A DNA stretch of 64,000 bases from Lampris incognitus (taxonomy: Eukaryota; Chordata; Actinopteri; Lampriformes; Lampridae), in assembly GCF_029633865.1 (NCBI RefSeq), contig NC_079212.1:84135672-84199671 (forward strand). Reading direction: 5' to 3'. Position numbers and translations under genes: made by a program. Positions 22,700 to 60,734 of the stretch are shown here, piece by piece (positions within the stretch are counted from its first letter, which is position 1; every line of letters starts with the position of its first letter). The notes beneath the pieces were generated by a model. The model searched no databases, had not been told where the DNA came from, and saw only the letters and a program-made list of their open reading frames with translations.

Positions 22700-23456
22700 G
22701 CTACCTTACAACGGTCCTGCTAAAAAGGGAAACGTTTTTCCTTTGCGTTTTAAAAAAAGTTCCGCGTTCAGACATCGTTTTGAATACGATCCGCATGCGC
22801 ACACGGATCCGCAAAAAACACCGTAGTACGCATGCCAGGCCAGTAGGTGACGGTGAAACTTTGTAGTAGAGAGCCCTTCCGGTGGACGTCTTGGCGCATG
22901 TAAATAATGCGTCTCCGCTGATCACAGTAATGGCGCAGCAAATCTGAGCTTTGCTGGAGGAGCGTTAATAAACTCAGCAGAGGTAACAGCACCAACACAG
23001 CTCGCTGAGCCGCCATTGTTAATGTTGTCTTCTTACTCGCGCATGGCTATTTGACTGAAAACGTAATACGCATGTGCGAAGTGGAGCCCTGACGTCACCG
23101 TTTTCACAGGAACCGGTTTTGCTAGTTTACACGGCGACGCCGGAATTGGGTTTTCAGAAGATTCCACTCTGGAACCCGGTTTCAAAAGTTTGCGTTTTCA
23201 GGCCCCCAAAACGCCGTTGTCGTGTGAACGAACGGCCACAACGCAAAAGTACCGTAACGATCACGGATACACAGACCCGGCTAGCGGGTCGGGCCCTTTA
23301 GTCGACTGGTTAACGTTGTCGCCGGCGGTGCGGAACATACGAGTTTCGCGCCCCGGCTGTGACGGCCCGGCCGGGCTGCCCTCCCAATTCGCTACAGTAC
23401 TTTACCGTGTTGTGTTGAAAACGTTGCCGGGCCGTTTACACGTCTGCGTCTACGTT
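22700..23456. mobile_element. Non-autonomous DNA transposon, interrupted by a solo LTR
   Basis: GC-rich, CpG-rich sequence with matching motifs at both ends (GCGTTTT, CCGTTCGTTCACACG and complements). It is split at 23253-23396 by a solo LTR. Its exact ends and family are not resolved. Confidence 0.35.
23253..23396 (+). mobile_element. Solo LTR (144 bp) of the tRNA-like miniature LTR element, 4-bp target duplication GTAC
   Basis: It matches the LTRs at 51042-51693 along its whole length: start CGTAACG (TGTAACG elsewhere), core TTTAGTCGACTGGTTAACGT, B-box-like GTTTCGCGCCCC, and end AATTCGCTACA. GTAC lies at 23249-23252 and 23397-23400. A solo LTR is the usual product of LTR-LTR recombination, so the family has been mobile in this genome. 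Confidence 0.85.
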
Positions 23457-23660: not shown

Positions 23661-26106
23661 GACTTTTTTGTTTAGTGTGGGTATGTGTGTTAGTTTGGGT
23701 ATGTGTATTAGCTTGGGTATGTGTGTTAGTTTGGGTATGTGTATTAGCTTGGGTATGTGTATTAGTTTGGGTATGTGTGTTAGTTTGGGTATGTGTGTTA
23801 GCTTGGGTATGTGTGTTAGTTTGGGTGTGTGTATTAGCTTGGGTATGTGCGTTAGTTTGGATATGTGTGTTAGCTTGGGTATGTGCGTTAGTTTGGATAT
23901 GTGCGTTAGCTTGGGTATGTGTGTTAGTTTGGATATGTGTGTTAGTTTGAGTATGTGTGTTAGTGTGGTTATGCGTGTTAGTGTGGGTATGTGTTAGTTT
24001 GGGTATGTGTGTTAGTTTGGGTATGTGTGTTAGCTTGGGTATGTGTGTTAGTTTGGGTATGTATGTTAGTTTGGATATGTGTGTTAGCTTGGGTATGTGT
24101 GTTAGTTTGGATATGTGTGTTAGTTTGAGTATGTGTGTTAGTGTGGTTATGCGTGTTAGTGTGGGTATGTGTTAGTTTGGGTATGTGTGTTAGTTTGGGT
24201 ATGTGTGTTAGTTTGGGTATGTATGTTAGTTTGGATATGTGTGTTAGCTTGGGTATGTGTGTTAGTTTGGGTATGTGTGTTAGTTTGGTAATTGTGTTAG
24301 TTTGGGTATGTGCGTTAGCTTGGGTATGTGCGTTAGTTTGGATATGTGCGTTAGCTTGGGTATGTGTGTTAGTTTGGGTATGTGTGTTAGTTTGGATATT
24401 TGTGTTAGTTTTGGTATGTGTGTTAGTGTGGATATGTGTGTTAGTTGGGTATGTGTGTTAGCTTGGGTATGTGTGTTAGCTTGGGTATGTGTGTTAGTTT
24501 GGGTATGTGTGTTAGTTTGGATATGTGTGCTAGTTTGGGTATGTGTGTTAGCTTGGGTATGTGTATTAGTTTGGGTATGTGCGTTAGCTTGGGTATGTGC
24601 GTTAGTTTGGATATGTGTGTTAGCTTGGGTATGTGTGTTAGTTTGGATATTTGTGTTAGTTTTGGTATGTGTGTTAGTGTGGATATGTGTGTTAGTTGGG
24701 TATGTGTGTTAGCTTGGGTATGTGTGTTAGCTTGGGTATGTGTATTAGTTTGGATATGTGTGTTAGTTTGGATATGTGTGTTAGCTTGGATATGTGTGCT
24801 AGTTTGGGTATGTGTGTTAGTTTGGATATGTGTGTTAGCTTGGGTATGTGTGTTAGTTTGGATATGTGTGTTAGCTTGGGTATGTGTGTTAGTTTGGATA
24901 TGTATGTGTGTTAGTTTGAGTATGTGTGTTAGTGTGGTTATGCGTGTTAGTTTGGGTATGTGTGTTAGCTTGGGTATGTGTGTTAGTTTGGATATGTGTT
25001 AGCTTGGGTATGTGTGTTAGTTTGGGTATGCGTGTTAGTTTGGATATGTGTGTTAGCTTGGGTATGTGTGTTAGCTTGGGTATGTGTGTTAGTTTGGATA
25101 TGTGTGTTAGCTTGGATATGTGTGCTAGTTTGGGTATGTGTGTTAGTTTGGATATGTGTGTTAGCTTGGGTATGTGTGTTAGTTTGGATATGTGTGTTAG
25201 CTTGGGTATGTGTGTTAGTTTGGATATGTATGTGTGTTAGTTTGAGTATGTGTGTTAGTGTGGTTATGCGTGTTAGTTTGGGTATGTGTGTTAGCTTGGG
25301 TATGTGTGTTAGTTTGGATATGTGTTAGCTTGGGTATGTGTGTTAGTTTGGGTATGTGTGTTAGCTTGGGTACGTGTGTTAGTTTGAGTATGTGTGTTAG
25401 TTTGGGTATGTGTGTTAGCTTGGGTATGTGTGTTAGTTTGGGTATGTGTGTTAGTTTGGGTATGTGTGTTAGTGTGGGTATGTGTGTTAGCTTGGGTACG
25501 TGTATTAGTTTGGGTATGTGTGTTAGCTTGGGTATGTGTGTTAGTTTGGATATTTGTGTTAGTTTTGGTATGTGTGTTAGTGTGGATATGTGTGTTAGTT
25601 GGATATGTGTGTTAGCTTGGGTATGTGTGTTAGTTTGGGTGTGTGTGTTAGTTTGGGTATGTGTGTTAGTTTGGATATGTGTTAGCTTGGGGATGTGTGT
25701 TAGTTTGGGTGTGTGTATTAGCTTGGGTATGTGTGTTAGTTTGGGTATGTGTGTTAGTTTGGATATGTGTGTTAGCTTGGGTATGTGTGTTAGCTTGAGT
25801 ATGTGTGTTAGTTTGGGTATGTGTGTTAGTTTGAGTATGTGTGTTAGTGTGGGTATGTGTGTTAGCTTGGGTATGTGTATTAGTTTGGGTATGTGTTAGT
25901 TTGGGTATGTGTGTTAGCTTGGGTATGTGTGTTAGTTTGGGTATGTGTGTTAGTTTGGATATGTGTGTTAGCTTGGGTATGTGTGTTAGTTTGGGTGTGT
26001 GTGTTAGCTTGGGTGTGTGTGTTAGTTTGGATATGTGTGTTAGCTTGGGTCTGTGTGTTAGTTTGGGTGTGTGTGTTAGCTTGGGTATGTGTGTTAGTTT
26101 GGGTAT
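23661..26106 (+). repeat. 18-bp minisatellite array, about 2.4 kb
   Basis: Unit TTAGTTTGGGTATGTGTG with variants (C for T at position 5, GGA for GGG, GTGTGG). About 135 units. Because 18 is divisible by 3, long frames of MCVSLG or VLVWVC repeats are open on both strands; they are not genes. Higher-order periods are visible: one variant block recurs 178 bp apart (23945 and 24123), and another 326 bp apart (24915 and 25241). Confidence 0.95.
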
Positions 26107-26279: not shown

Positions 26280-26664
26280 GGGGTCCGCGGTGGTGTAGCG
26301 GTCTAAGCATCGGCTTTGTGTCGATGCAGTTGCCCACTGGGGAGCGGGGTTCGCGCCCCGCTCTCGTCAGATCCGACTATGGCCGGACTCGATGAAGCAG
26401 CAATCATTGGCAACGCTGGCTTCGGGAGGGGGGCGGAGTCGGCTTGTGTTCGTCACGCGAATGCGTCTCTGGGTGTGGGGAAAAGCAGTGGTTCGGCCTG
26501 GAGTCGCCTTGTCACGAAAGTGGCGAGGCGTCTCCTTCCAGACTGCCGGCCGGAGAGATGCAGTTGGTGAACGCATGCAGTACGAGGGTGGGTGTTTGAA
26601 TTAAAATAGGGATCGATTGGCCACTAAATTGGGAGAAAAAAGGGAAAAATCAGAAATAAATTTA
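26280..26664 (+). mobile_element. tRNA-derived SINE, 14-bp target duplication
   Basis: Head GGTCCGCGGTGGTGTAGCGG with A box and B box GGTTCGCGCCCC; tail TTGGCCACTAAATTGGGAG followed by an A-rich end. TAAACCCCCACGTG flanks it at 26266-26279 and 26665-26678. A second copy is at 39361. Confidence 0.92.
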
Positions 26665-27186
26665 TAAACCCCCACGTGTCTTCAGTTCACCGGCGAGCTA
26701 CTTTAGTTTGTGATTTTAGTTTGTGTGTTGTAGCTACTTTGTGTTGTCTTTGTCTCTAGCTACTTTGTGTTTGTAATGTCTAGCCCGTTTTCGGTTAAGT
26801 TTGGCATTGTTTGAATCTTGAGTATTTTGAGTTGTGTTTAGCCTTTAATTTGTTTAGTTCTTTTGGGCAAGGGGGTCAAGGTAAGATGCCCATGGGCAAA
26901 CACCCCATCACGTAGCTTACCTCCTGTTAAGACACACTAGGTTAGGAGCGGTTGCCCCCTTCTGTCTTTAGGTTTGGTGCTTTTCAGCACTGTCAAGGGT
27001 GGGTTACTTTTGTTAGTAGTTTATTGTTTTGGCAACCGTTCGGTTCCCTTGTCCTGTCATGGTGTCAAATAAATGTTTATATTTTATTATATTTAAACGT
27101 TTATGTCTCACTGTGTTGCACCCTCACCTCACTGTTACCCAGTACACCAATTGTTGCACCCTCTCCAGACTGAGGGATATAATTAA

Positions 27187-37700: not shown

Positions 37701-40700
37701 GGGGGTGGCAGGTCTGTATCTTTTTTTCCATAAAGTTATTAAACTTTGAAAATCCAAAACGGTCATGATGACCGTCTTGGTTGTTCTAGTGAACACGTCA
37801 CATAAAAAAGTAAAGATAAAATGACTACAAAAGTCTAAATGACAGGAAGGGCGCTCACATAGTCTGTAAGTACAGGGCACAGACACCATGTGGACGGACC
37901 ACACCTTTTCCTAGTCTTTTCACAGTCCAGTCGTACCAAGGCATACCCAAGGCCTACATTTCCCACAATCTTTGCGCGTCGTGTTCCTTTTCTGCCAGAA
38001 GTTACAGACTGTAACCAACACGCCACTGTCCACGGAGGAAAAGAAGAGCTGCTGTGTTGCAGGCTATGTTGGAAAGAAAAACCTCGTGGAGGGGGGTATG
38101 TTGGACCACTTCACGAAGGGAGGGACAGAGAGGGGGAGTCCAGAATGCTGGTGAGGGACATGAGAAGTATAGATGAGGAAAACACCGTCTCCAAGCCATG
38201 AAGAAGAAATTGAAGAAGGTTTCCGGTGCCACACGAAATGCATGTCGATGTGAAACAGTTTCATGCCGAGCCGTGTTTTGTGACACCGGTACATGAATGC
38301 TAGGTGCGCACGGTCACAAAAACTGAGCTTCACGCAGACATGGGCAGGCGGACATACGTCAAGGTCCACTATTGCGTCATTTTAGTCGGTGTGGACCCCA
38401 GTGGAGGACGGTCCGTGTCTGATACGTCAAGACTATGAATTGGCCTTAACTCACCTCTCGTGACCTCATAAGGTATCGCACCATTCGTCCTCTCAGTGCC
38501 GCTAGAGTCTGGTTGTCAAAGTCTGGCACGTTCATCCCTGGGGACACGCACAAACCAAACAAGGCTCCATCAGAATGGCTTTCCCAACCCACGGAGATCT
38601 GAAAAGTGATGCTGGTATGTCCTCGGGGAAAGACAGTCTGCCTACCTGTGATGCTGTCCACGAGGACCTGCCACCGTGGCAACTCTTGCTCCAACTGTCT
38701 GATCTCCCTCTTCTGATGGCGGTCTGAAATCATCAGCTCTGACGGTGGAAGAAAACAGTGAACATGGAGGTACACGTAAACAGTGAAATATTAACATCAT
38801 CAAATGTGTGTCAGTCAATGAAAATACCTCAGTCTGCTCATTGTTCTTATAAATAATGCTTTTTATTTCCGTTTAGATTCTTACCATGCTCCAGGACCTC
38901 GTCCCTGCTCTCCCTAAACGAAGAGAGACAACTGAGTTCCCAGTACACATGACTAATAAGTTCTTCACACGCTGCTTCTATAAAATCTGTCTTACTTTAA
39001 CTTCTGATCGTCCACTATCTGCTCAGCATCCGAGAAGTTGAGAACCTGGTCACCTTTAGGGAGAGTTTGAACTGGAACACACACACACACACACACACAC
39101 ACCAGATACAGCATTGTCAGACTCCATAATGTGTAGCAGTATAAGCATGTTTTCTTCATAACAACTGATATATCTGGCTACACTGTGGTTGTTCTGTTAC
39201 AGAAGAATGTACTTCCTGAGAGTTTTGTTGTTAAGAGTTGTATGTTAACTTGCAGTGTCATCTGTTGTTCTGCTTGTTGCTCCTTTAAGTTAACCAGTTC
39301 ACTTTAAACTCAGTGTTGAAAATATCAGCAGTTTCAATGACGTTAAAAAACAGCTGGATAGTGGGTCCGCGGTGGCGTAGCGGTCTAAGCATCGGCTTGG
39401 TGTCGATGCAGTTGCCCACTGGGGACTGGGGTTCGCGCCCCGGTCTCGTCAGATCCGACTATGGCCGGACTCGATGAAGCAGCAATCATTGGCAACGCTG
39501 TCTTCGGGAGGGGGGCGGAGTCGGCTTGTGTTCGTCATGTGAATGCGTCTCTGTGTGTGTCGGAAAAACAGTGGTTCGGCTTGGATTCGCCTTGTCACGA
39601 AAGTGGGGAGGCGCTTTCCTTCGAGACTGCCGGCCGGAGAGATGCAGTTGGCGAACGCATGCAATACGAGGGTGGGTGTTTGAATTAAAATAGGGATCAA
39701 TTGGCCACTAAATTGGGAGAAAAAAGGGAAAAATCAGAAATAAAATAAAAAAAAAACAAAAAAAAAACAGCTGGATATTGTCATTGTCTGTAAGAATGCA
39801 GGGCCAGGAAAAGCAGCTTAAATAGTTGTGTTGTGGCAGGAATGAGGAAAAACACATGAGACCAAGGCGAGATTGATGTTTATTCCTCAACTCCAAAAAC
39901 CAACTGCAGCAGGAACAACCCTGCCCCGGCGAGCCCGGGAACGTAAACCACGCCCCCAGCTCACAGTCCTGCTGGGTGAGAGGCATAGCCCCTAGTGTCC
40001 GCCACACAGGCCCCCCCCCCCGAACACCCAGAAGGGACTCCTGGAAAGAAACTTAGTGTCTCACTGGAGGCTTAAGCAGCCTGCCATAACGGTTGCGCCG
40101 TCCCTCAGCCGAAACAGTAGGTAAAACACAGTCCAAAGCCGGCTGAGAAGCAGAACGCTGAACCCGTGAAGACACTGTCGGGGTCCTGGAAGGAGGACGA
40201 CCCCGACGGGGAACCTGGGCCGGAAACACAACTTCGCCTGCCACCCTGTGCACCAGTTTAAGCCTATCAAGCGTGACACGCTCCCTACGCCCACCCATAT
40301 CTAGCACAAAACCCTTAGGACCCATCTCAAGAACCCGAAATGGACCATCGTATGGGGGTTGGAGGGGTGAGCGGTGAGCATCATGCCGTACAAAAACAAA
40401 ACGAGCCGACATGAGCTCCGCAGGCACGAACGACCGCGGAAAACAGTGGTGAACGGGGCCTGGAACCCGAGTGCTGTCGGACAAAAAAGGATAAACGGCC
40501 GGACGGGGTCGAGGAGCGGAACTCCCAGGCAAAAATTTCCCAGGGACGCGGAGTGGCTGACCAAGCACCAGCTCAGCGGGTGACGCGTCGAGGTCCTCCT
40601 TAGGAGCCGAACGCAACCCGAGCATAACCCAAGGTAAACGATCCACCCAGTTACCATCCAAGAGCGCAGCACTGCCTTGAGCGACCTGTGAAAACGTTCA

Positions 40701-50258: not shown

Positions 50259-50867
50259 ATAGGTCCTTACAAATACCAAACGAACAAGCAACACTTTTGA
50301 TATGACCAGGTGTCTATGGCGATATTACAACATCAAGTCTGCTACCTCTCTTCTCTTTTATTTGATTTTAATTGTCATGAAATGGTGTATTACATAACTG
50401 CAGTAAAGTATTTTTTTCGACACACGCTGATTACTGTTCAATAACACAGATTACACTGGACAACAAATTTTTTTCAAACGTTTTGCTTCCTGAAAAAAAT
50501 TCTAGCGATCATGATAATGTCAAGCTGAACACAAGAATAATTTCAGTTTTGCTGTATCACGTAGGAATTTGGAGAAACATTAAAGTAACTTTTGTTGAAT
50601 TTAACATGTTTAATCACATAATGAGGCTGACACATTGTGTTCAGCTGAGCTTAAAAAGTTTTGCAGCAGATTTTGGTTTGTACTCAGCACCTGGTGCCTC
50701 TCCTGTCAGTGTCCAACAATAGTCGGCCAGCACTGATGGATTCCAGTTATCCTGGTACCTCTTTCCCATGGTCACAATGTCCTGGTGAGACTTTTCACCA
50801 TGTTCCTCGCTGATTGCACCAAGATCAGCAGGGAAGAAGTCCAAGTGTGATGCAGAACATTAATTTT

Positions 50868-50930
50868 GACTGCTGGGATAGGCGCCAGCATCCCTAGGAT
50901 AAGCGGCTTGGATAATGGATGGATGTTGCA
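50868..50930 (-). repeat. Short piece of the CATCCATCCATTATCC-type repeat
   Basis: Reverse complement of the head of the repeat at 43730-43790, inserted between CATCAAGTGCAACAT and the codons for KINVLHH of the pseudogene. Confidence 0.75.
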
Positions 50931-51041
50931 CTTGATGGTTTTGTGTGCTTTAAGCATGTTGTCAAGCAGTTCAGTTTAGTTTGGTGCTCTGCGGTTGCCA
51001 AGAAAATCCTCAACAACATCCTTAAATGCCTTGCATGCTAT

Positions 51042-51195
51042 TGTTGCGAATTCAGGGGACAGTCTGGGAGACCGTCGCCGCAGCCGGGGACGCGAACGCG
51101 TGTCTCCCACTCCGCAAGCGACAACGTTAACCAGTCGACTAAAGGGTCCAACCCTGATCAAGGACCAACATGTCTGCTTATCCATTCACGTTACA
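51042..51195 (-). repeat. TRIM LTR 3
   Basis: 154 bp; start TGTAACGTGAATGGATAAGC on the minus strand, end GAATTCGCAACA. Confidence 0.88.
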
Positions 51196-51261
51196 CTACC
51201 CCGCTCCTTCGGTATCGGCTCCCTCACGCCTCTGGGCGCACGTACTTCCGATGACCTCACG

Positions 51262-51279
51262 ATCCCACTTCTGACACCA
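51262..51279 (-). promoter_or_regulatory. TRIM primer binding site 2, tRNA-Leu type
   Basis: TGGTGTCAGAAGTGGGAT, 18 of 18 to the tRNA-Leu(CAA) 3' complement as I recall it; 1 nt inside the LTR. Confidence 0.85.
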
Positions 51280-51280
51280 A

Positions 51281-51423
51281 TGTAACGAATTCGGGGGGGG
51301 GGCGCCACAGACGGGACGCGAACCCGTGTTTCCCACACCACAAGCGACAACCTTAACCAGTCGACTAAAGGGTCCGACCCGTTAGTCAAGAACCAACGTG
51401 TGTGCTTATCCATGCACGTTACG
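51281..51423 (-). repeat. TRIM LTR 2 (shared)
   Basis: 143 bp; has a C run expanded near 51290-51302 and lacks the GACGGTCTCCCAGACTG block of the other two. Confidence 0.88.
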
Positions 51424-51521
51424 CTACCCCCCTCCTTCGGCAAGCGCGTCCCCGCGCTTCAGGATATCGGCACCCTCACGCCTCTGGGCGCACGCGCTTC
51501 CAATGACCTCACGGTCTCACT

Positions 51522-51539
51522 ATCCTACTTCTGACACCA
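51522..51539 (-). promoter_or_regulatory. TRIM primer binding site 1, tRNA-Leu type
   Basis: TGGTGTCAGAAGTAGGAT, one mismatch to the tRNA-Leu(CAA) 3' complement as I recall it; 1 nt inside the LTR. Confidence 0.8.
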
Positions 51540-51540
51540 A

Positions 51541-51693
51541 TGTAGCGAATTTGGGGGGCAGTCTGGGAGACCGTCGCCACAACCGGGACGCGAACCCATG
51601 TCTCCCACTCCGCAAGCGACAACGTTAACCAGTCGACTAAAGGGTCCGACCCTGGTCAAGGACCAACGTGTCTACGTATCCATTCACGTTACA
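51541..51693 (-). repeat. TRIM LTR 1
   Basis: 153 bp; carries TTTAGTCGACTGGTTAACGT and GGGTTCGCGTCCCGG on the minus strand. Confidence 0.88.
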
Positions 51694-52318
51694 CTATTTT
51701 CTCTGCCCTGCTAGCAGATCTTCTAACTCCCTATCACTGATGACCTGTCTGATTTGTGGACCAACAAAAATGCCTTCCTTCATCTTGGCATCAGTGATTC
51801 TTGGAAACATCTGTCTCAGATAGTGAAATCCATCACCTTCTTTGTTCATTGCTGTCACAAAATTGTTCATCAGTCTGAGTTTTATATGAAGAGGAGGCAG
51901 ATATATCTGTTGGGTGGACAAGTGGTTTATCCTCCACACTTTTCTGTCCTGGAACGAAATGCTTACGGAGCAGCTAGTTCTTTTTAATGTGACGTGACTC
52001 TTTAGCACGGCTATCCCATTTTCAAAGGAAGCAACATTCCTTTTATGTCCGAGCTGCATTCCTAGTAGCAGTGCCAGTACTTTTACATCGCCACACATGT
52101 TCCAGTCGTAATTGTTGTACTGTATGTGTTCCAACAACAGTTCCATGTTATTGTAGCTTTCTTTCATGTGTACTGCATAGCCAATGGCTACTGAAGGGTG
52201 GACATTGCCATTGTGTAACAGGACAGATTCAGGCTTAACTTTGATGAATCTATAATACGATGCCATTGTTGTGGGTCATGCACACAACCCAAAGCCATGA
52301 ACAATCCACCAATGTCAA

Positions 52319-53337: not shown

Positions 53338-54494
53338 ATGGACGGGTTATGCACGGGCCGACGGGGCCCGGGCCCCATGGCCCCGCCCTTCTGGGGGCCC
53401 CCAAGATTAGCGAAATTACGTCCTCTGAAATCCGCCCAATGACTATCCCTTCTATAAATAATCATTACAAGAGGTAATGTCGATTACCAGGGTTTATATA
53501 AGACATGATTTCACTAGAATTCTCAATCACGGTGGCAAAATATTTTTTTCCAGTTGTATGCCAAAAATATTCCTGTATTATTTCAAATATGGATTCATTA
53601 GCACCAATGTACAATTAAATGTTATAGACTACACATACAAAGAAAAACAAAAATCATTAAAAAATGAAAATAAATTGCATCATGGGCCAATAGATTTGCT
53701 CTTGACGATCATGATTCACGTTCAAGTACGTAGCTACGTCATTGTAGGCTATACAAAAAACAAAAATGGGGAAGAGGCGTTATGCTAGCGGGTTCCTTAA
53801 AAGAAAAACAAAACAGGAAAAAGTTGAAAGACAGGCGTCCGAGTTGCAAAAGATCCCAAAATTGGATAGTTTTTTTTTTTTAAAAAGAAAGAAACTCAAA
53901 CTCTGGATAAGGATGAAGAAGAAGCCCTACTACCGCCAAGCGTTAGCAACTGTGATGAAGCTAGTGTAAACTACTAATAAGACACGTTAGCCCCTAGCTA
54001 ACGGGTCTGACTCTTTAGCCGAGCGGTTAGTGATGTCGCCTTGTGGTGCAGTACACTCCGTATCGAATCCCGCACCGGGCAAGAAAATAACCGGTTACAC
54101 TAGCTAGCAACCTTAGGCCTACTGAAGATGAGCTAATGTTAACGGCAACCGCCATGAATGGACAGCAGCAGCGGCAGCGTTTGGATAAAAGTGGCTGCTA
54201 ATCAGCAGGCGAGCTAACTGTCGCCACGTTCGGGGGGTTACTGCAGCAAGAGCAACCGTGGAGAAAACGGTGAGGAGCAGCATGACGACAATCACAAACA
54301 ATACATCAGCGATCCTGGGGAGTGGGGTGAGAAGATTAGTGAACATTTGATGTGTTGTTTGCTTCAGAAGGGTCCGACCGCTTGTCAGAATAGAAGCAAG
54401 ACATATCCTGCATCTGCTCGGGAAATCAATGGAAAGTTAAGATCACTTTCTAATGAACTGTTTTTACGTCGTTTGCCCAACGGGGAAGAGGTGG
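53338..54494 (+). pseudogene. ZMYM1-like / TTF-type hAT gene, 5' part
   Basis: A G/C-rich start (GACGGGTTATGCACGGGCCG) near 53338 resembles the end of such hAT elements. ATG at 53766 opens MGKRRYASGFLKRKTKQEKV, then PKLDSF, the typical basic N-terminus. After decay and an LTR-like insertion (53998-54099), YISDPGEWGEKISEHLMCCL-type sequence in shifting frames and ASAREINGKLRSLSNELFLR run to NGEEVARE, where a second hAT is inserted. The gene goes on at 63336. Confidence 0.72.
53998..54099 (+). mobile_element. Possible solo LTR or SINE with tRNA-like core, flanks CTAG
   Basis: CTAACGGGTCTGACTCTTTA, then GCCGAGCGGTTAGTGATGTC in A-box position, TATCGAATCCCGCACC in B-box position, end AACCGGTTACA. 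CTAG at 53994-53997 and 54100-54103. The first half resembles the TRIM LTRs (GGTCGGACCCTTTAGTCGAC). CTAG is palindromic and common here, so the duplication alone is weak. Confidence 0.5.
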
Positions 54495-55581: not shown

Positions 55582-55823
55582 TGTAGAGCCGAAGGAACGG
55601 AGAAGACCGTAGGTTCACACTTTAGCCGTGTAGGCAACTTTCTTTAATCACGGTAAATCAGCGAGACAAACAAAACCCACCGCTCGACTGAGCGGAGGTG
55701 GCAAGAATAATCAGAATACTGGCTGGACAACCATAACTTAACCCTGCGTTAACCTGCCAGGGCAACCATGACTTAACCCTTAGTTCCTGGGTTGAATTCT
55801 GTCCCCAATACGTGTCCACCACA
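55582..55823 (-). repeat. 3' LTR of Gypsy element E
   Basis: 242 bp; TGTAGAGCC...CACCACA on the plus strand. Confidence 0.97.
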
Positions 55824-55844
55824 TGAGCCCCCCCAGAATTCGCC

Positions 55845-57545
55845 CTAGTAATCGAAGTCAGGCAGGCGCGGGTGGACGACAGGCCGTCCGCGGCGGCTCC
55901 GGATAACAGGGGCCGGAGTGTCTGTGGGAGGCATTGACGCGGGCCTGTGGAGGTCGGCCTGAGGAGCAGAAGAGGCAGCTCGGGCCTCCACGGGGGGAGG
56001 AGGCGGAGCCGGGGGACGACCGCGACGAGGAGGTTGGGCTAACTCCAACGGCTGCGTCAAGTCCAGGTGTGCGGGTTTAACTCGGTCCACTGAAACATGC
56101 TCGGCCGTGCCCCCAAAATCCACCACCAGGTGCTTAGTTCCCCGTTCCAGGACGCGGAAGGGGCCGTCATAAGGGGGTTGCAGAGGGGGGCGGTGTGCGT
56201 CGTGACGGATGAACACGTAGTCCGCTGACTGCAGACCTGGGGGCACCTGGGACACCGGAGCGCCGTGTTGGGCGGTAGGGACGGGTGTGAAAGCTCTGAC
56301 CCCGTCCAGCAAGGAGGCTCGTTGGTCCACAGCTGACCAGGGACGCGTTACATTGGGCATGAAATCGCCTGGGACTCGCAGCGGCGTGCCGTACACCAGC
56401 TCCGCAGAGGAGGCTTGTAGGTCTTCCTTCGGGGCGGTCCGCAGGCCCAGCATGACCCATGGGAGCTTGTCAACCCAGTTGCAGTCCTTGAGAGTAGCCC
56501 GAAGCGCAGCCTTCATGGACCGGTGGAAGCGCTCACATAGGCCGTTCGCCTGAGGGTGGTAGGCGGTAGTGCGATGAAGCTTGACGCCCAGAGCCTCACC
56601 CACAGCATTCCATAGCTCTGAGGTAAACTGTGGCCCACGGTCAGATGAAAGGTCGGAAGGTGTACCGAAACGTAAGACCCACGACCCAATAAAAGCCCGG
56701 GCCACATCAGCAGACGTCGTGGATGCCAGGGGAACAGCTTCAGGCCAGCGCGTAGTCCTGTCCACCACAGTGAAGAGGTAGGTGAACCCATGGGAGGGGG
56801 GTAGGGGACCAACCAGGTCGACGTGGACATGGTCAAATCGTCTCTCCGGCACTGCGAAGCGTTCCAGGGGCGCCTTAATGTGGCGGTGTATCTTAGCCCG
56901 CTGACAGGCAACACACGAGTCGGCCCACGCTTTCACGTCTCTCTTAAGTCCCTCCCACACAAACTTAGCAGAGGTCAGGCGCACGGATGGCTTACCGCCT
57001 GGATGAGAGAGGCCGTGCACAGCTTCAAATACGGGGCGTCTCCAGCTGTGCGGGACGATGGGCCTGGGCTGTCCTGTGGAGACGTCACACAGGAGGGTGA
57101 CACCTGTGTCGCTGAAAGGAACGTCCTGCAGGCGGAGCCCCGTGTCGGAGGCCCGGAGACGGAGGATGCTCGGGTCCGTGGCCTGGTCAGCAGCCATCTG
57201 TGCATAGTCAAGGCCTAGGTGGACCGCTCCAATCACTGCCCTAGACAGGCAGTCAGCTACCTGGTTAGACTTACCGGCGACGTGCTGGATGTCGGTAGTG
57301 AATTCCGAAATGTAGGAGAGTTGTCGCTGCTGGCGAGCGGACCATGGCTCGGCCGTCTTGGACATGGCAAACGTGAGGGGCTTGTGGTCCACGTACGCAG
57401 TAAACTCGCGGCCCTCTAGCAGGAAACGGAAATGCCGGACGGCGAGCCAGAGACCGAGGAGTTCCCTGTCAAAAGTACTATACTTGCGCTCTCGGGGTGT
57501 AAGCTGGCGACTGAAAAAGGCCAAAGGCTGCCAAGCCCCCCCCAC
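55845..57545 (-). pseudogene. Pol of Gypsy element E after the stop: RNase H and integrase
   Basis: In the same frame as the upstream part. RNase [34 protein letters not shown] (catalytic Asp kept), VADCLSRA. Integrase: zinc domain HGLSHPGGKPSVRL and [12 protein letters not shown]; core [35 protein letters not shown] with all three acidic residues. A basic, proline-rich tail replaces a chromodomain. One nonsense codon is the only defect of the whole element; it may be a mutation rather than a recoded stop. Confidence 0.92.
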
Positions 57546-59066
57546 CTACTGTTCGTGAACCGCACCAACAGCATAGTCCGATGCATCCGTGGTTATGGAA
57601 ATAGGCGCTGTAGGTGAAGGATGCGCTAGCAGGGTAGCCTGGGAGAGCGCAGCTTTAGTCTCGGTGAACGCACGGTCCCGCTCTGCTGTCCAGTCGACCG
57701 CCTGGTTGGGGGACATGCCTTTCAGCGCCTCGTACAGTGGCCGGATGATAAAGGCGGCTCGAGGAATGAAGCGGTGGTAGAATGTCACCATCCCGATGAA
57801 CTCCCTGAGCGCACGAGCTGTTTGGGGGCGCGGAAAGGCCGCCACCGCTTCCACCTTTGAGGGCAGGGGGACTGCCCCGTCCCCAGTGATGCGGTGCCCG
57901 AGGAAATCAATGGCTGTCAGCCCGAACCGGCACTTCGCCGGGTTGACGATCAGCCCATGCTGGCTGAGGCGTGTGAAGAGGGCATGAAGATGGGACAGGT
58001 GTTCTTCCTCGGAGGCGCTGGCGATGAGTATGTCGTCCAAATAGACGAAGATGAAAGGAAGGCCACGGAGCACTGAATCCATCAGCCGCTGAAAGGACTG
58101 GGCCGCGTTTTTGAGTCCAAATGGCATTCGTAGGAATTCAAATAGGCCGAATGGGGTTGTCACCGCTGTCTTGGGGACGTCTGAGGGGTGCACGGGAACT
58201 TGATGATAACCACGGACCAGGTCGACTTTTGAGAAGACGCATTTGCCAGACAGGTTTGCAGAAAAGTCCTGGATATGCGGGACAGGATAGCGGTCAGGCG
58301 TGGTGGCGTCATTTAGTCGGCGGTAGTCCCCGCATGGGCGCCAACCTCCATCAGGCTTAGCGACGATGTGGAGTGGGGACGCCCACGGGCTGTCAGAGCG
58401 GCGGATGATCCCCATGCGTTCCAGGTGCTCGAACTCAGACTTGGCAATGGCGAGTTTGGCGGGGTCGAGACGCCTGGCTCTGGCGTAGACCGGGGGCCCC
58501 TTCGTAGCAATGTGATGCTCCACCCCATGCTTAGCGGTGGGTGCAGAGAAGGTAGGCTGGGTGAGGTCAGGGAACTCAGCGAGGAGGCGGGTGAACTTGT
58601 CTGCCTCTGAGAGAGAGTTGGCTAGACCTGCATAGGCCGCTTCCCTCCGCGTACATGCGAAGGAGGAGAAGGTTAAGGCATCGACCAGACGGCTGTTCTG
58701 AATGTCCACTAGCAAACCGTAAGCGCACAAAAAATCAGCTCCGAGGAGGGGAAGCGTTACATTGGCCATGACGAACTCCCACGTGAAACGTTGTCCACCA
58801 AAACACAGTTCTACAGACCGCACGCCGTAGGTGTGGATAGGGCTGCCGTCAGCCGTCGCCAACTGGGGGCCCCGCTCCCCGCCCATGATGTCGACGTCAG
58901 TAGCAGGGAGCACGCTTCTCTGTGCGCCCGTGTCACAAAGAAATCGCCGACCGGAGATGGTGTCGAGGATGAAGAGTAGCCTGCTCGTATCGCCAACACT
59001 CATGGCCACTACTGAGTGTTGGCCCTCTCGTTTCCCGTCGGCCTGTAGTTGCAGGGGGAACGGCAC
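57546..59066 (-). CDS. Pol of Gypsy element E: protease, RT and start of RNase H
   Basis: Frame enters by -1 shift. Protease [16 protein letters not shown] with intact Asp-Thr-Gly, then [79 protein letters not shown] at 58043-58032, thumb [20 protein letters not shown]. RNase [16 protein letters not shown], then TAG at 57548-57546. The frame continues directly beyond this single stop. Confidence 0.93.
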
Positions 59067-59701
59067 CGTTTAGCTTTCGCACCAAATCGAGCGTGGTACA
59101 TACAGAGTCCAGAGGGCTTGTAGCGGTCTGATGCTGTGGCGCCACCGTCGGGCCACGCCCGCGATGTCGGCGGGGGGCCAGTGAAGGTAGGAGCCAGCAC
59201 CCCGGCATGGGAGGAACGTTGTGTAGCGACGAAGAATCGGTCAGCCTCCTTTGCCAGCTCACGGGGATCAGTGATGGTGGAGTTAGCGAGCGCAGTCTGG
59301 ACGTGGGGCGGCATGTTGCGCAGAAACAGCTCCATAAACAGGAAACATGGCTTTTCTTGACCCAGTAGGTTTAACATCCTGCTCATTAGCTCCGATGGTT
59401 TGCCATCTCCCAAGCCCTGAATTGCGAAGAGGCGACGTGCTCTCTCCGTTGCTGACAGTTCAAAAGTTTCAAGGAGGAGATGTTTAAGTGCGGCGTATTT
59501 ACCATCGGCCGGTGGGTTGGTTATGAAACCGCTTATCCTGGAAGCCGTAGCGCACCCCAGCGCTGCCACTACGTAGTAGTACCTGGTCTCGTCTGCTGTT
59601 ATGTCTCTGAGCGCGAACTGTGCCTCAGCCTGCGCGAACCACGTAGCCGCGGAAGACTCCCAAAACTCCGGCAGTTTAATTGCAACGGCGTTCGTAGCCA
59701 T
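59009..59701 (-). CDS. Gag of Gypsy element E
   Basis: 230 codons from ATG 59701, 50 nt inside the LTR. Capsid: [50 protein letters not shown]. The C-terminal zinc-binding variant is [18 protein letters not shown] rather than a CCHC knuckle, the form of mag-like Gypsy gag. It overlaps pol by 58 nt, with pol in the -1 frame. Confidence 0.92.
59030..59036 (-). promoter_or_regulatory. -1 ribosomal frameshift heptamer GGGAAAC
   Basis: In the gag frame it is read G GGA AAC, 5 codons before the gag TAG; slipping back one base gives the pol frame ([10 protein letters not shown]). The same heptamer in the same place precedes the gag stop of element D (43175-43169). Confidence 0.8.
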
Positions 59702-59753
59702 AATGTGTGTGGTTTCAGAAAACTTATCCGAAAACCGACGTCGGGGTCACCAG

Positions 59754-59995
59754 TGTAGAGCCGAAGGAACGGAGAAGACCGTAGGTTCACACTTTAGCCG
59801 TGTAGGCAACTTTCTTTAATCACGGTAAATCAGCGAGACAAACAAAACCCACCGCTCGACTGAGCGGAGGTGGCAAGAATAATCAGAATACTGGCTGGAC
59901 AACCATAACTTAACCCTGCGTTAACCTGCCAGGGCAACCATGACTTAACCCTTAGTTCCTGGGTTGAATTCTGTCCCCAATACGTGTCCACCACA
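59754..59995 (-). repeat. 5' LTR of Gypsy element E
   Basis: 242 bp, identical to the 3' LTR as far as I can read. Confidence 0.97.
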
Positions 59996-60734
59996 TGCAC
60001 AACTTTACAATGCAAATACAAATAATTGTAGGCTATTACTCGCTAAATGGACTAATTGAAAAAGCTAATGTGGATGCCGCCACTGGTTTTCTTGAGAGCT
60101 GGAGACAGTACGAGATTTGACGGATGTGGCATTCCCCCCCCCCCCCCGATGTACCGAAAACTACCGAACCGTATGGTGATTCGTGACACCGCATAGGCTA
60201 CTGTAAATATGGGGATATTTTTCTTTGCATATATGCAGCATTGGGTGTGCCAAATTCTAAAAATAGACACGCGCGACGTAGCTTTTGAACAGTACTATGA
60301 ACTGGCTCTATCTTCTAACAAAATCACACCCTCCCTGACCCATACAGAATAAACATACAGACTCACGGAGGGTAGAGAGTTAAAGCTCAGCTAGGTAGCA
60401 TGTAACATACTTAAATCAATAATTAAATGACTGGGTTTTGCTAATTAATCCCTGTCCTGTTAGTCTCATAAATTATGTATCTTTTCTCATACTTTTCATT
60501 TATCCAGCTAGTTTACATTAGTTAATCTACTAATATGGTAATGTTAGTTATATAGATAACTAAATATGTAACTTAACTGGTTATGGTTCAAACAACTATA
60601 TGTATAATGTGTAACATTTGTATTGTTATTGCATATTGTTATAGCTATAACGTTACACATTTTTTGCTGTGAGAAAGATTACTTGAAACAGTTTGGCATC
60701 AGCAAGCTAAAGTGTGTATCCTATCTTCCCCTAG

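Follow-up and report, generated by a model that had tools for sequence, protein, structure and literature searches.

Small LTR retrotransposons of the TRIM type with a tRNA-like LTR were named Helenus by Kojima (2024) and are described there from fungi, animals and plants (PMC10886601). Animal Helenus elements are reported to create 4-bp target-site duplications and to be mobilised by Gypsy elements, those of vertebrates being primed by tRNA-His, tRNA-Leu or tRNA-Lys, and fish families are listed from Cypriniformes, catfish, milkfish, sterlet, paddlefish and coelacanth (PMC10886601). Several families can be found in one genome, primers vary, and LTR-11_DR, with 5575 LTRs, occurs in tandem arrays (PMC10886601). 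According to the same account, most Helenus families are unlikely to encode a tRNA, their use of RNA polymerase III (Pol III) had not been validated as of 2024, and Cassandra is the only validated TRIMp3 (PMC10886601). Cassandra arrays are reported to form by two routes, one of which is LTR recombination (PMC7215508).

The element analyzed here lies in a stretch of 64,000 nucleotides from Lampris incognitus, hereafter the window, and is read, at a probability of about 0.88, as a Helenus-type TRIM, i.e., an LTR retrotransposon without coding capacity that an autonomous element of the Gypsy superfamily mobilises in trans. It is likened to Helenus, a TRIMp3 with fish families such as LTR-11_DR, on the basis of the published description. 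The original prediction knew of no described fish family of this sort, a statement overtaken by the families already present in Kojima (2024) (PMC10886601). The kind is therefore already known, and what is new here is a further abundant member with extra detail; an RTAY target site and a three-LTR unit in which the two outer LTRs resemble each other most, both considered below, were not found in the main text of that paper (PMC10886601). Literature searches judged by titles and the beginnings of abstracts found no further reports of such elements in fish among the records listed, and a text search with LTR words returned matches by one short word only, under titles mostly concerned with DNA barcodes. 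Cassandra, a plant TRIM, resembles the present element in the Pol III-type promoter sequence within its LTR and in its short arrays of about three LTRs; however, its LTR is derived from 5S rRNA and its promoter is validated, whereas the LTR described here is tRNA-like and its promoter putative. Ajax, a nemertean TRIM, shares a small-RNA-gene-derived LTR and a tRNA-Leu primer but differs by its 5S-like LTR and 5-bp duplications. The 5S signature of Cassandra and Ajax was not seen, 5S rRNA in Rfam giving no match in window positions 50900-51800 and 53900-54150. The animal elements biv-TRIM and PbTRIM are likewise miniature and non-coding, and biv-TRIM also occurs as solo repeats and tandems (PMC6934838); unlike the case of the present tRNA-like LTR, no small-RNA promoter is named in the abstract of biv-TRIM or in the opening of that of PbTRIM.

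The complete unit spans positions 51042..51693 on the minus strand (652 bp) and reads, from 51693 to 51042, as LTR(153)-internal(117)-LTR(143)-internal(85)-LTR(154), with a perfect CTAT on either side (51038..51041 and 51694..51697). The arrangement first proposed, with three LTRs of 143-154 bp, two internals of 85-117 bp and a perfect CTAT duplication, was found again in every part on that strand. LTR1, the 5' LTR (51541..51693, 153 bp, TGTAACG...CTACA), is 91.5% identical to LTR3, the 3' LTR (51042..51195, 154 bp, TGTAACG...GCAACA), while LTR2 in the middle (51281..51423, 143 bp, CGTAACG...GTTACA) is 82-84% identical to the outer LTRs. Internal A (51424..51540, 117 bp) and internal B (51196..51280, 85 bp) both begin with TTGGTGTCAGAAGT and end with GAAGGAG[GC]GGGGTAG. 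Each is bounded, as had been claimed, by a tRNA-Leu-type primer-binding site and a purine tract: the primer sites at 51522..51540 in internal A and 51262..51280 in internal B agree at 17 and 18 of 18 positions, respectively, with the complement of the 3' end of tRNA-Leu(CAG), their putative primer, plus CCA, and the polypurine tracts, read by eye, are GAAGGAGGGGGGTAG (51424..51438, internal A) and GAAGGAGCGGGGTAG (51196..51210, internal B), all on the minus strand. Stop-to-stop frames within the 652 bp do not exceed about 90 amino acids, and a protein search with one translated LTR/internal frame returned no database match at E 0.01. Neither AATAAA, TATAA nor TTTT occurs in the element, and the five LTRs of the window are without AATAAA, ATTAAA, TATAA and TTTT. 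The LTRs have ends of the TG...CA type. The architecture is that of a Helenus TRIM, non-coding and below 1000 bp, with LTRs around a short internal region, a primer site at the 5' LTR and a polypurine tract before the 3' LTR.

Two solo LTRs, both on the plus strand, complete the inventory of the window, a profile search of which gave no further LTR copy above threshold. One, at 23253..23396, belongs to the same family, is 74-77% identical to LTR1-3, has GTAC on both sides and shows a decayed box B; the other, at 53965..54099, represents a second family, is 61-63% identical to LTR1-3 and has CTAG on both sides. Across the assembly (1.48 Gb, 537 contigs), a search with the LTR sequence confirmed that the element is repeated, exact occurrences numbering 2757 for a 27-base LTR core, 3692 for the primer-site pattern and 3474 for the core of the second family, with 0 for each reversed control; bacterial/archaeal and viral contigs searched for LTR and primer-site words yielded nothing. 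The exact-word counts 2757 and 3474 and the published figure of 5575 LTRs for LTR-11_DR come from counting methods that are not comparable. Copy structure was examined in 70 loci (L039-L108) of contig C1, taken by position among the hits to the LTR core word; they gave 96 unique LTR groups, 93 of them away from a locus edge; 63 were complete at both outer ends and 33 were dropped. Single LTRs are the commonest form (40 of the 63 units) and share both LTR termini; 19 units have two LTRs and four have three. Exact 4-bp duplications flank 29 units (14/40 single, 11/19 two-LTR and 4/4 three-LTR), against 9.3 of 63 expected from random re-pairing of flanks, whereas exact duplications of 3, 5 and 6 bp number 0, 0 and 1; under a stricter end rule, with duplicates not yet removed, the count is 29/65 (15/41, 11/20 and 3/4). 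Together with CTAT, GTAC and CTAG in the window, these provide the 4-bp duplication typical of Helenus, and the 34 of 63 complete units that have no exact 4-bp match weigh against this assignment. The primer site is found with at most one mismatch in 20 of 27 inter-LTR gaps and with at most three in 22; the five gaps missing it include those between LTRs 3 and 11 nt apart, and L049 is a locus with two LTRs 3 nt apart. LTR pairs within 20 two- and three-LTR units are 78-97% identical, indicating insertions of varied ages, the youngest of them fairly recent. As a side observation, 19 of the 43 LTR matches listed fall within 50.9-54.5 Mb of contig C14 (L003, L008), where the loci of two matches share 97.7% identity over 3.1 kb, which makes a large segmental duplication probable.

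Duplications in the sample are strongly biased in sequence. RTAY accounts for 25 of the 29 exact duplications (ATAT 16, GTAT 4, ATAC 4, GTAC 1) against a background of 0.0146, and the flanks, symmetric about the duplication, show A at -7 in 20/29 and T at +3 in 17/29. Among the window duplications, GTAC is RTAY, and CTAT (ATAG on the strand of the element) and CTAG are not. Drosophila Gypsy elements are reported to make 4-bp duplications with palindromic ATAT or TATA motifs, the Idefix clade having a high-information ATAT target (PMC3276498). The RTAY pattern looks like the footprint of an integrase and would be compatible with a Gypsy helper. Regarding the helper itself, the primer-site core TGGTGTCAGAAG has no other occurrence in the window, which weighs against the assignment inasmuch as an autonomous partner was not found, and all five places examined when this partner was sought through its primer site turned out to be TRIM copies or a TRIM fragment. 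These five places (L109-L113), which lie away from the listed LTR core words, belong to further subfamilies; in four the internal region is flanked by LTR-like sequence at either end, in L112 at one end only, and the LTRs of L111 are of two subfamilies. The window also contains a Gypsy-type element at 55582-59997, with long pol open reading frames, a primer site unlike that of the TRIM, and two 244-bp LTRs whose 100% identity indicates that it is probably young. A Gypsy family sharing the TTGGTGTCAGAAGTGGG primer site and making 4-bp duplications at RTAY would be the likely helper.

Regarding the origin of the three-LTR unit in the window, the most likely course, proposed with modest confidence, is that it formed by a template switch or from recombined cDNA, before or in the course of reverse transcription, and was integrated as one piece. 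Its outer LTRs share 19 sites that group them, against 6 for LTR1-LTR2 and 4 for LTR2-LTR3, and its internals differ by 32 bp in length. The main competing view, that the tandem arose only once the element had been inserted, through unequal or ectopic recombination between LTRs, and was not integrated as a unit, seems somewhat unlikely although several points speak for it: such recombination is one of the two routes reported for Cassandra arrays (PMC7215508), L074 has internals that are 99% identical with LTR2-LTR3 as the closest pair, and sister-chromatid or allelic exchange within one element would likewise preserve the outer duplication. Unlike fused separate insertions, all five three-LTR units (the one in the window and 4/4 in the sample) have a single matching outer duplication (3/4 of those sampled under the stricter end rule), and in L094 the sequence jumps from the primer site back into the LTR, as a template switch would leave it. 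Weighing against the preferred reading, the outer LTRs are the closest pair in only two of the five units, namely that of the window and L084 (20 shared sites, against 7 and 9); LTR2-LTR3 is closest in L074 and L094, and LTR1-LTR2 in L097, the middle LTR of which is shortened.

The LTRs carry two tRNA-like boxes. On the minus strand, box A and box B are located at 51629..51639 and 51586..51596 in LTR1, at 51357..51367 and 51314..51324 in LTR2, and at 51131..51141 and 51088..51098 in LTR3. Both boxes had been assigned to each LTR, which stands for box A, TAGTCGACTGG being present in all three, and partly for box B, since LTR1 and LTR2 have GGTTCGCGTCC exactly and LTR3 has CGTTCGCGTCC, one letter off. 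The boxes are 43 nt apart from start to start, with 32 nt between them, a distance within the spacing seen in tRNAs. With at most two mismatches, eight A+B pairs can be found in the window (LTR1, LTR2, the LTR of the second family and five elsewhere), compared with a mean of 0.15 and a maximum of 2 in 20 dinucleotide shuffles; the pair of LTR3, with three mismatches (shuffle mean 2.7 at that cut-off), and that of the LTR at 23253, with four (shuffle mean 18), would not stand out alone. In the second-family LTR, box A is TAGCCGAGCGG at 54016, and a box-B-like GTATCGAATCC with two mismatches lies at 54060. When the LTRs were aligned locally to nine tRNA genes, with 200 shuffles per LTR, LTR1-3 scored 33-36 and the second-family LTR 39, each above all of its shuffles, and the LTR at 23253 scored 30, equalled or exceeded in 6/200; the highest-scoring isotype varies, being glycine or proline in LTR1-3, arginine in the LTR at 23253 and histidine in the second family. 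The excess of box pairs over shuffles and the similarity of LTR1-3 provide the tRNA-derived LTR sequence with boxes A and B that characterizes Helenus. The idea that the LTR could be recognized as a tRNA by structure search was not borne out, ARAGORN finding 0 tRNAs in the window, 0 in 108 loci and 0 in L114-L115, and Rfam at relaxed thresholds none in 50900-51800, in 53900-54150, in 20 loci or in 6 loci; lowered-threshold ARAGORN calls in 4/5 window LTRs were set aside as uninformative, because 127-193 of 300 shuffles per LTR were also called. Boxes and similarity with no recognized cloverleaf indicate a likeness that is promoter-like rather than that of a working tRNA. Just upstream of box A is a small hairpin, GGGTCGGACCC, followed by TTT (LTR1: minus strand 51652-51639). 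It is predicted in all five window LTRs, weakly in the second family (-1.3 kcal/mol), and may possibly be a start or end signal for Pol III.

Chance resemblance was addressed through the recurrence of the boxes among copies. The C1 sample had been chosen by a word covering box A, so that conservation of this box cannot be read from it; a set selected by the internal region comprised 29 loci and 82 hits, which gave 63 LTRs with at least 110 columns. Among these, the majority letter has a mean frequency of 0.928 in each of the two boxes and of 0.858 outside them, with 36/145 (box A) and 34/145 (box B) windows at least as conserved. Five diverged copies show a mean identity of 0.83 in box A, 0.72 in box B and 0.66 in the rest, windows doing as well numbering 19/143 and 47/143, respectively, and many of the best-conserved windows fall in the stretch hairpin (GGGTCGGACCC)-TTT-box A-GGTTA. 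In six of seven diverged LTRs, box A either equals the consensus or departs from it by one letter, the exception being L110, and in these six the two boxes are 43-44 nt apart. The boxes are therefore kept across copies, both somewhat above the rest of the LTR, moderately and not exceptionally. That box A survives in 6/7 diverged LTRs argues against chance likeness, and it also bears on a second rival, according to which the element is an ordinary TRIM driven by Pol II whose LTR merely holds the decayed remains of an inserted tRNA or SINE that do not act as a promoter. While this rival draws on the lack of any tRNA recognized by ARAGORN or Rfam in the sequence searched and on box conservation only moderately above that of the rest of the LTR, it is made rather unlikely by the intact or nearly intact box A with its constant spacing to box B and by the five window LTRs, which are without TATAA or a polyadenylation signal. 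The weakest rival, a tRNA-derived SINE, single or in an array, that a LINE mobilises, is highly improbable and was rejected, for although the boxes and their spacing are tRNA-like and single units outnumber two-LTR units by 40 to 19 of 63, the LTR-internal-LTR order with two or three LTRs in 23/63 units, the primer site with at most one mismatch in 20/27 gaps, the exact duplications of 4 bp, mostly RTAY, carried also by 14/40 single units, the LTR termini that single units share at both ends, and the lack of an A-tail at the three window copies identify an LTR element. Structure, copies and boxes thus agree with what had been proposed from the start, a non-autonomous LTR element of the TRIM type whose LTR contains a tRNA-like region with boxes A and B.

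The second family is not restricted to solo LTRs. L114 and L115 are complete LTR-internal-LTR copies with internals of 97 and 104 bp and with duplications ATAG and CCCC, respectively. The primer site of L115 matches 17/18 nt of tRNA-Leu(TAG), an isoacceptor other than that of the first family, and the shortened primer site of L114 matches 11/18 nt. The four LTRs of these copies have tRNA scores of 32, 35, 39 and 39, of which 32 only ties the best of its 200 shuffles. Their internals also contain about 19 nt similar to the variable arm of tRNA-Leu(TAG) in sense orientation, a likeness reached by 0/300 shuffles; this is the isoacceptor that also fits the primer site of L115, and the stretch, which the first family does not show, is kept only as a curiosity. 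The two families thus have LTRs about 60% identical to each other and primer sites fitting different tRNA-Leu isoacceptors.

With the Helenus-type reading, the life cycle of the element can be outlined. Transcription by Pol III would begin in the 5' LTR, upstream of box A, and extend across the internal region into the 3' LTR; the resulting RNA would be packaged by the Gag of a Gypsy element, tRNA-Leu would prime its reverse transcription, and the integrase of the helper Gypsy element would perform the insertion. Weighing against the Pol III part is the rarity of TTTT, at which a Pol III transcript would be expected to end and which is absent from the 652-bp element and present in only 2/63 LTR copies. 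A broader proposal, drawn from sequence features, is offered as tentative and is on the whole unlikely to hold: two co-resident vertebrate Helenus lineages would run the whole LTR-element cycle on Pol III, starting upstream of box A and ending at GGGTCGGACCC-TTT in the 3' LTR, which would leave a short R like that of Cassandra, and three-LTR compounds would be copied and integrated as units at RTAY.

Regarding its surroundings, the element interrupts an open reading frame of a repeat family (51694-52266, minus strand, resuming at 51041). This fragment (51694-52266 minus plus 50641-51041) is itself a widespread repeat, the named homologs of which include fish, turtles and arthropods, and no Pfam family was found in it above cut-off. 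The joined flank peptides have 307 homologs, the best match being from the fish Metynnis hypsauchen (58% identity); among the 120 homologs listed, 86 alignments cross the junction with 10 residues to either side of it, 80 of these without a gap within about 8 residues. Judged from these junction-spanning homologs, the insertion is clean; in the DNA, the reading frames of the two flanks do not agree at the junction. Elsewhere in the window, positions 23672-26106 hold short units such as GTGTTAGTTTGGGTAT repeated in a long tandem array, the open frames of which are due to the repetition. Positions 26281-26668 and 39363-39752 form a 94% identical repeat pair that carries tRNA-like boxes A and B and may be a SINE with a tRNA head.

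With regards to the biology of these elements, Helenus-type TRIMs can attain thousands of copies per genome, so that many of the short repeats and tRNA-like hits in such a genome may belong to LTR elements and not to SINEs. The RTAY target-site signature could aid in finding the helper element, and the families described here provide a high-copy system in which the putative use of Pol III by an animal LTR retrotransposon can be examined.
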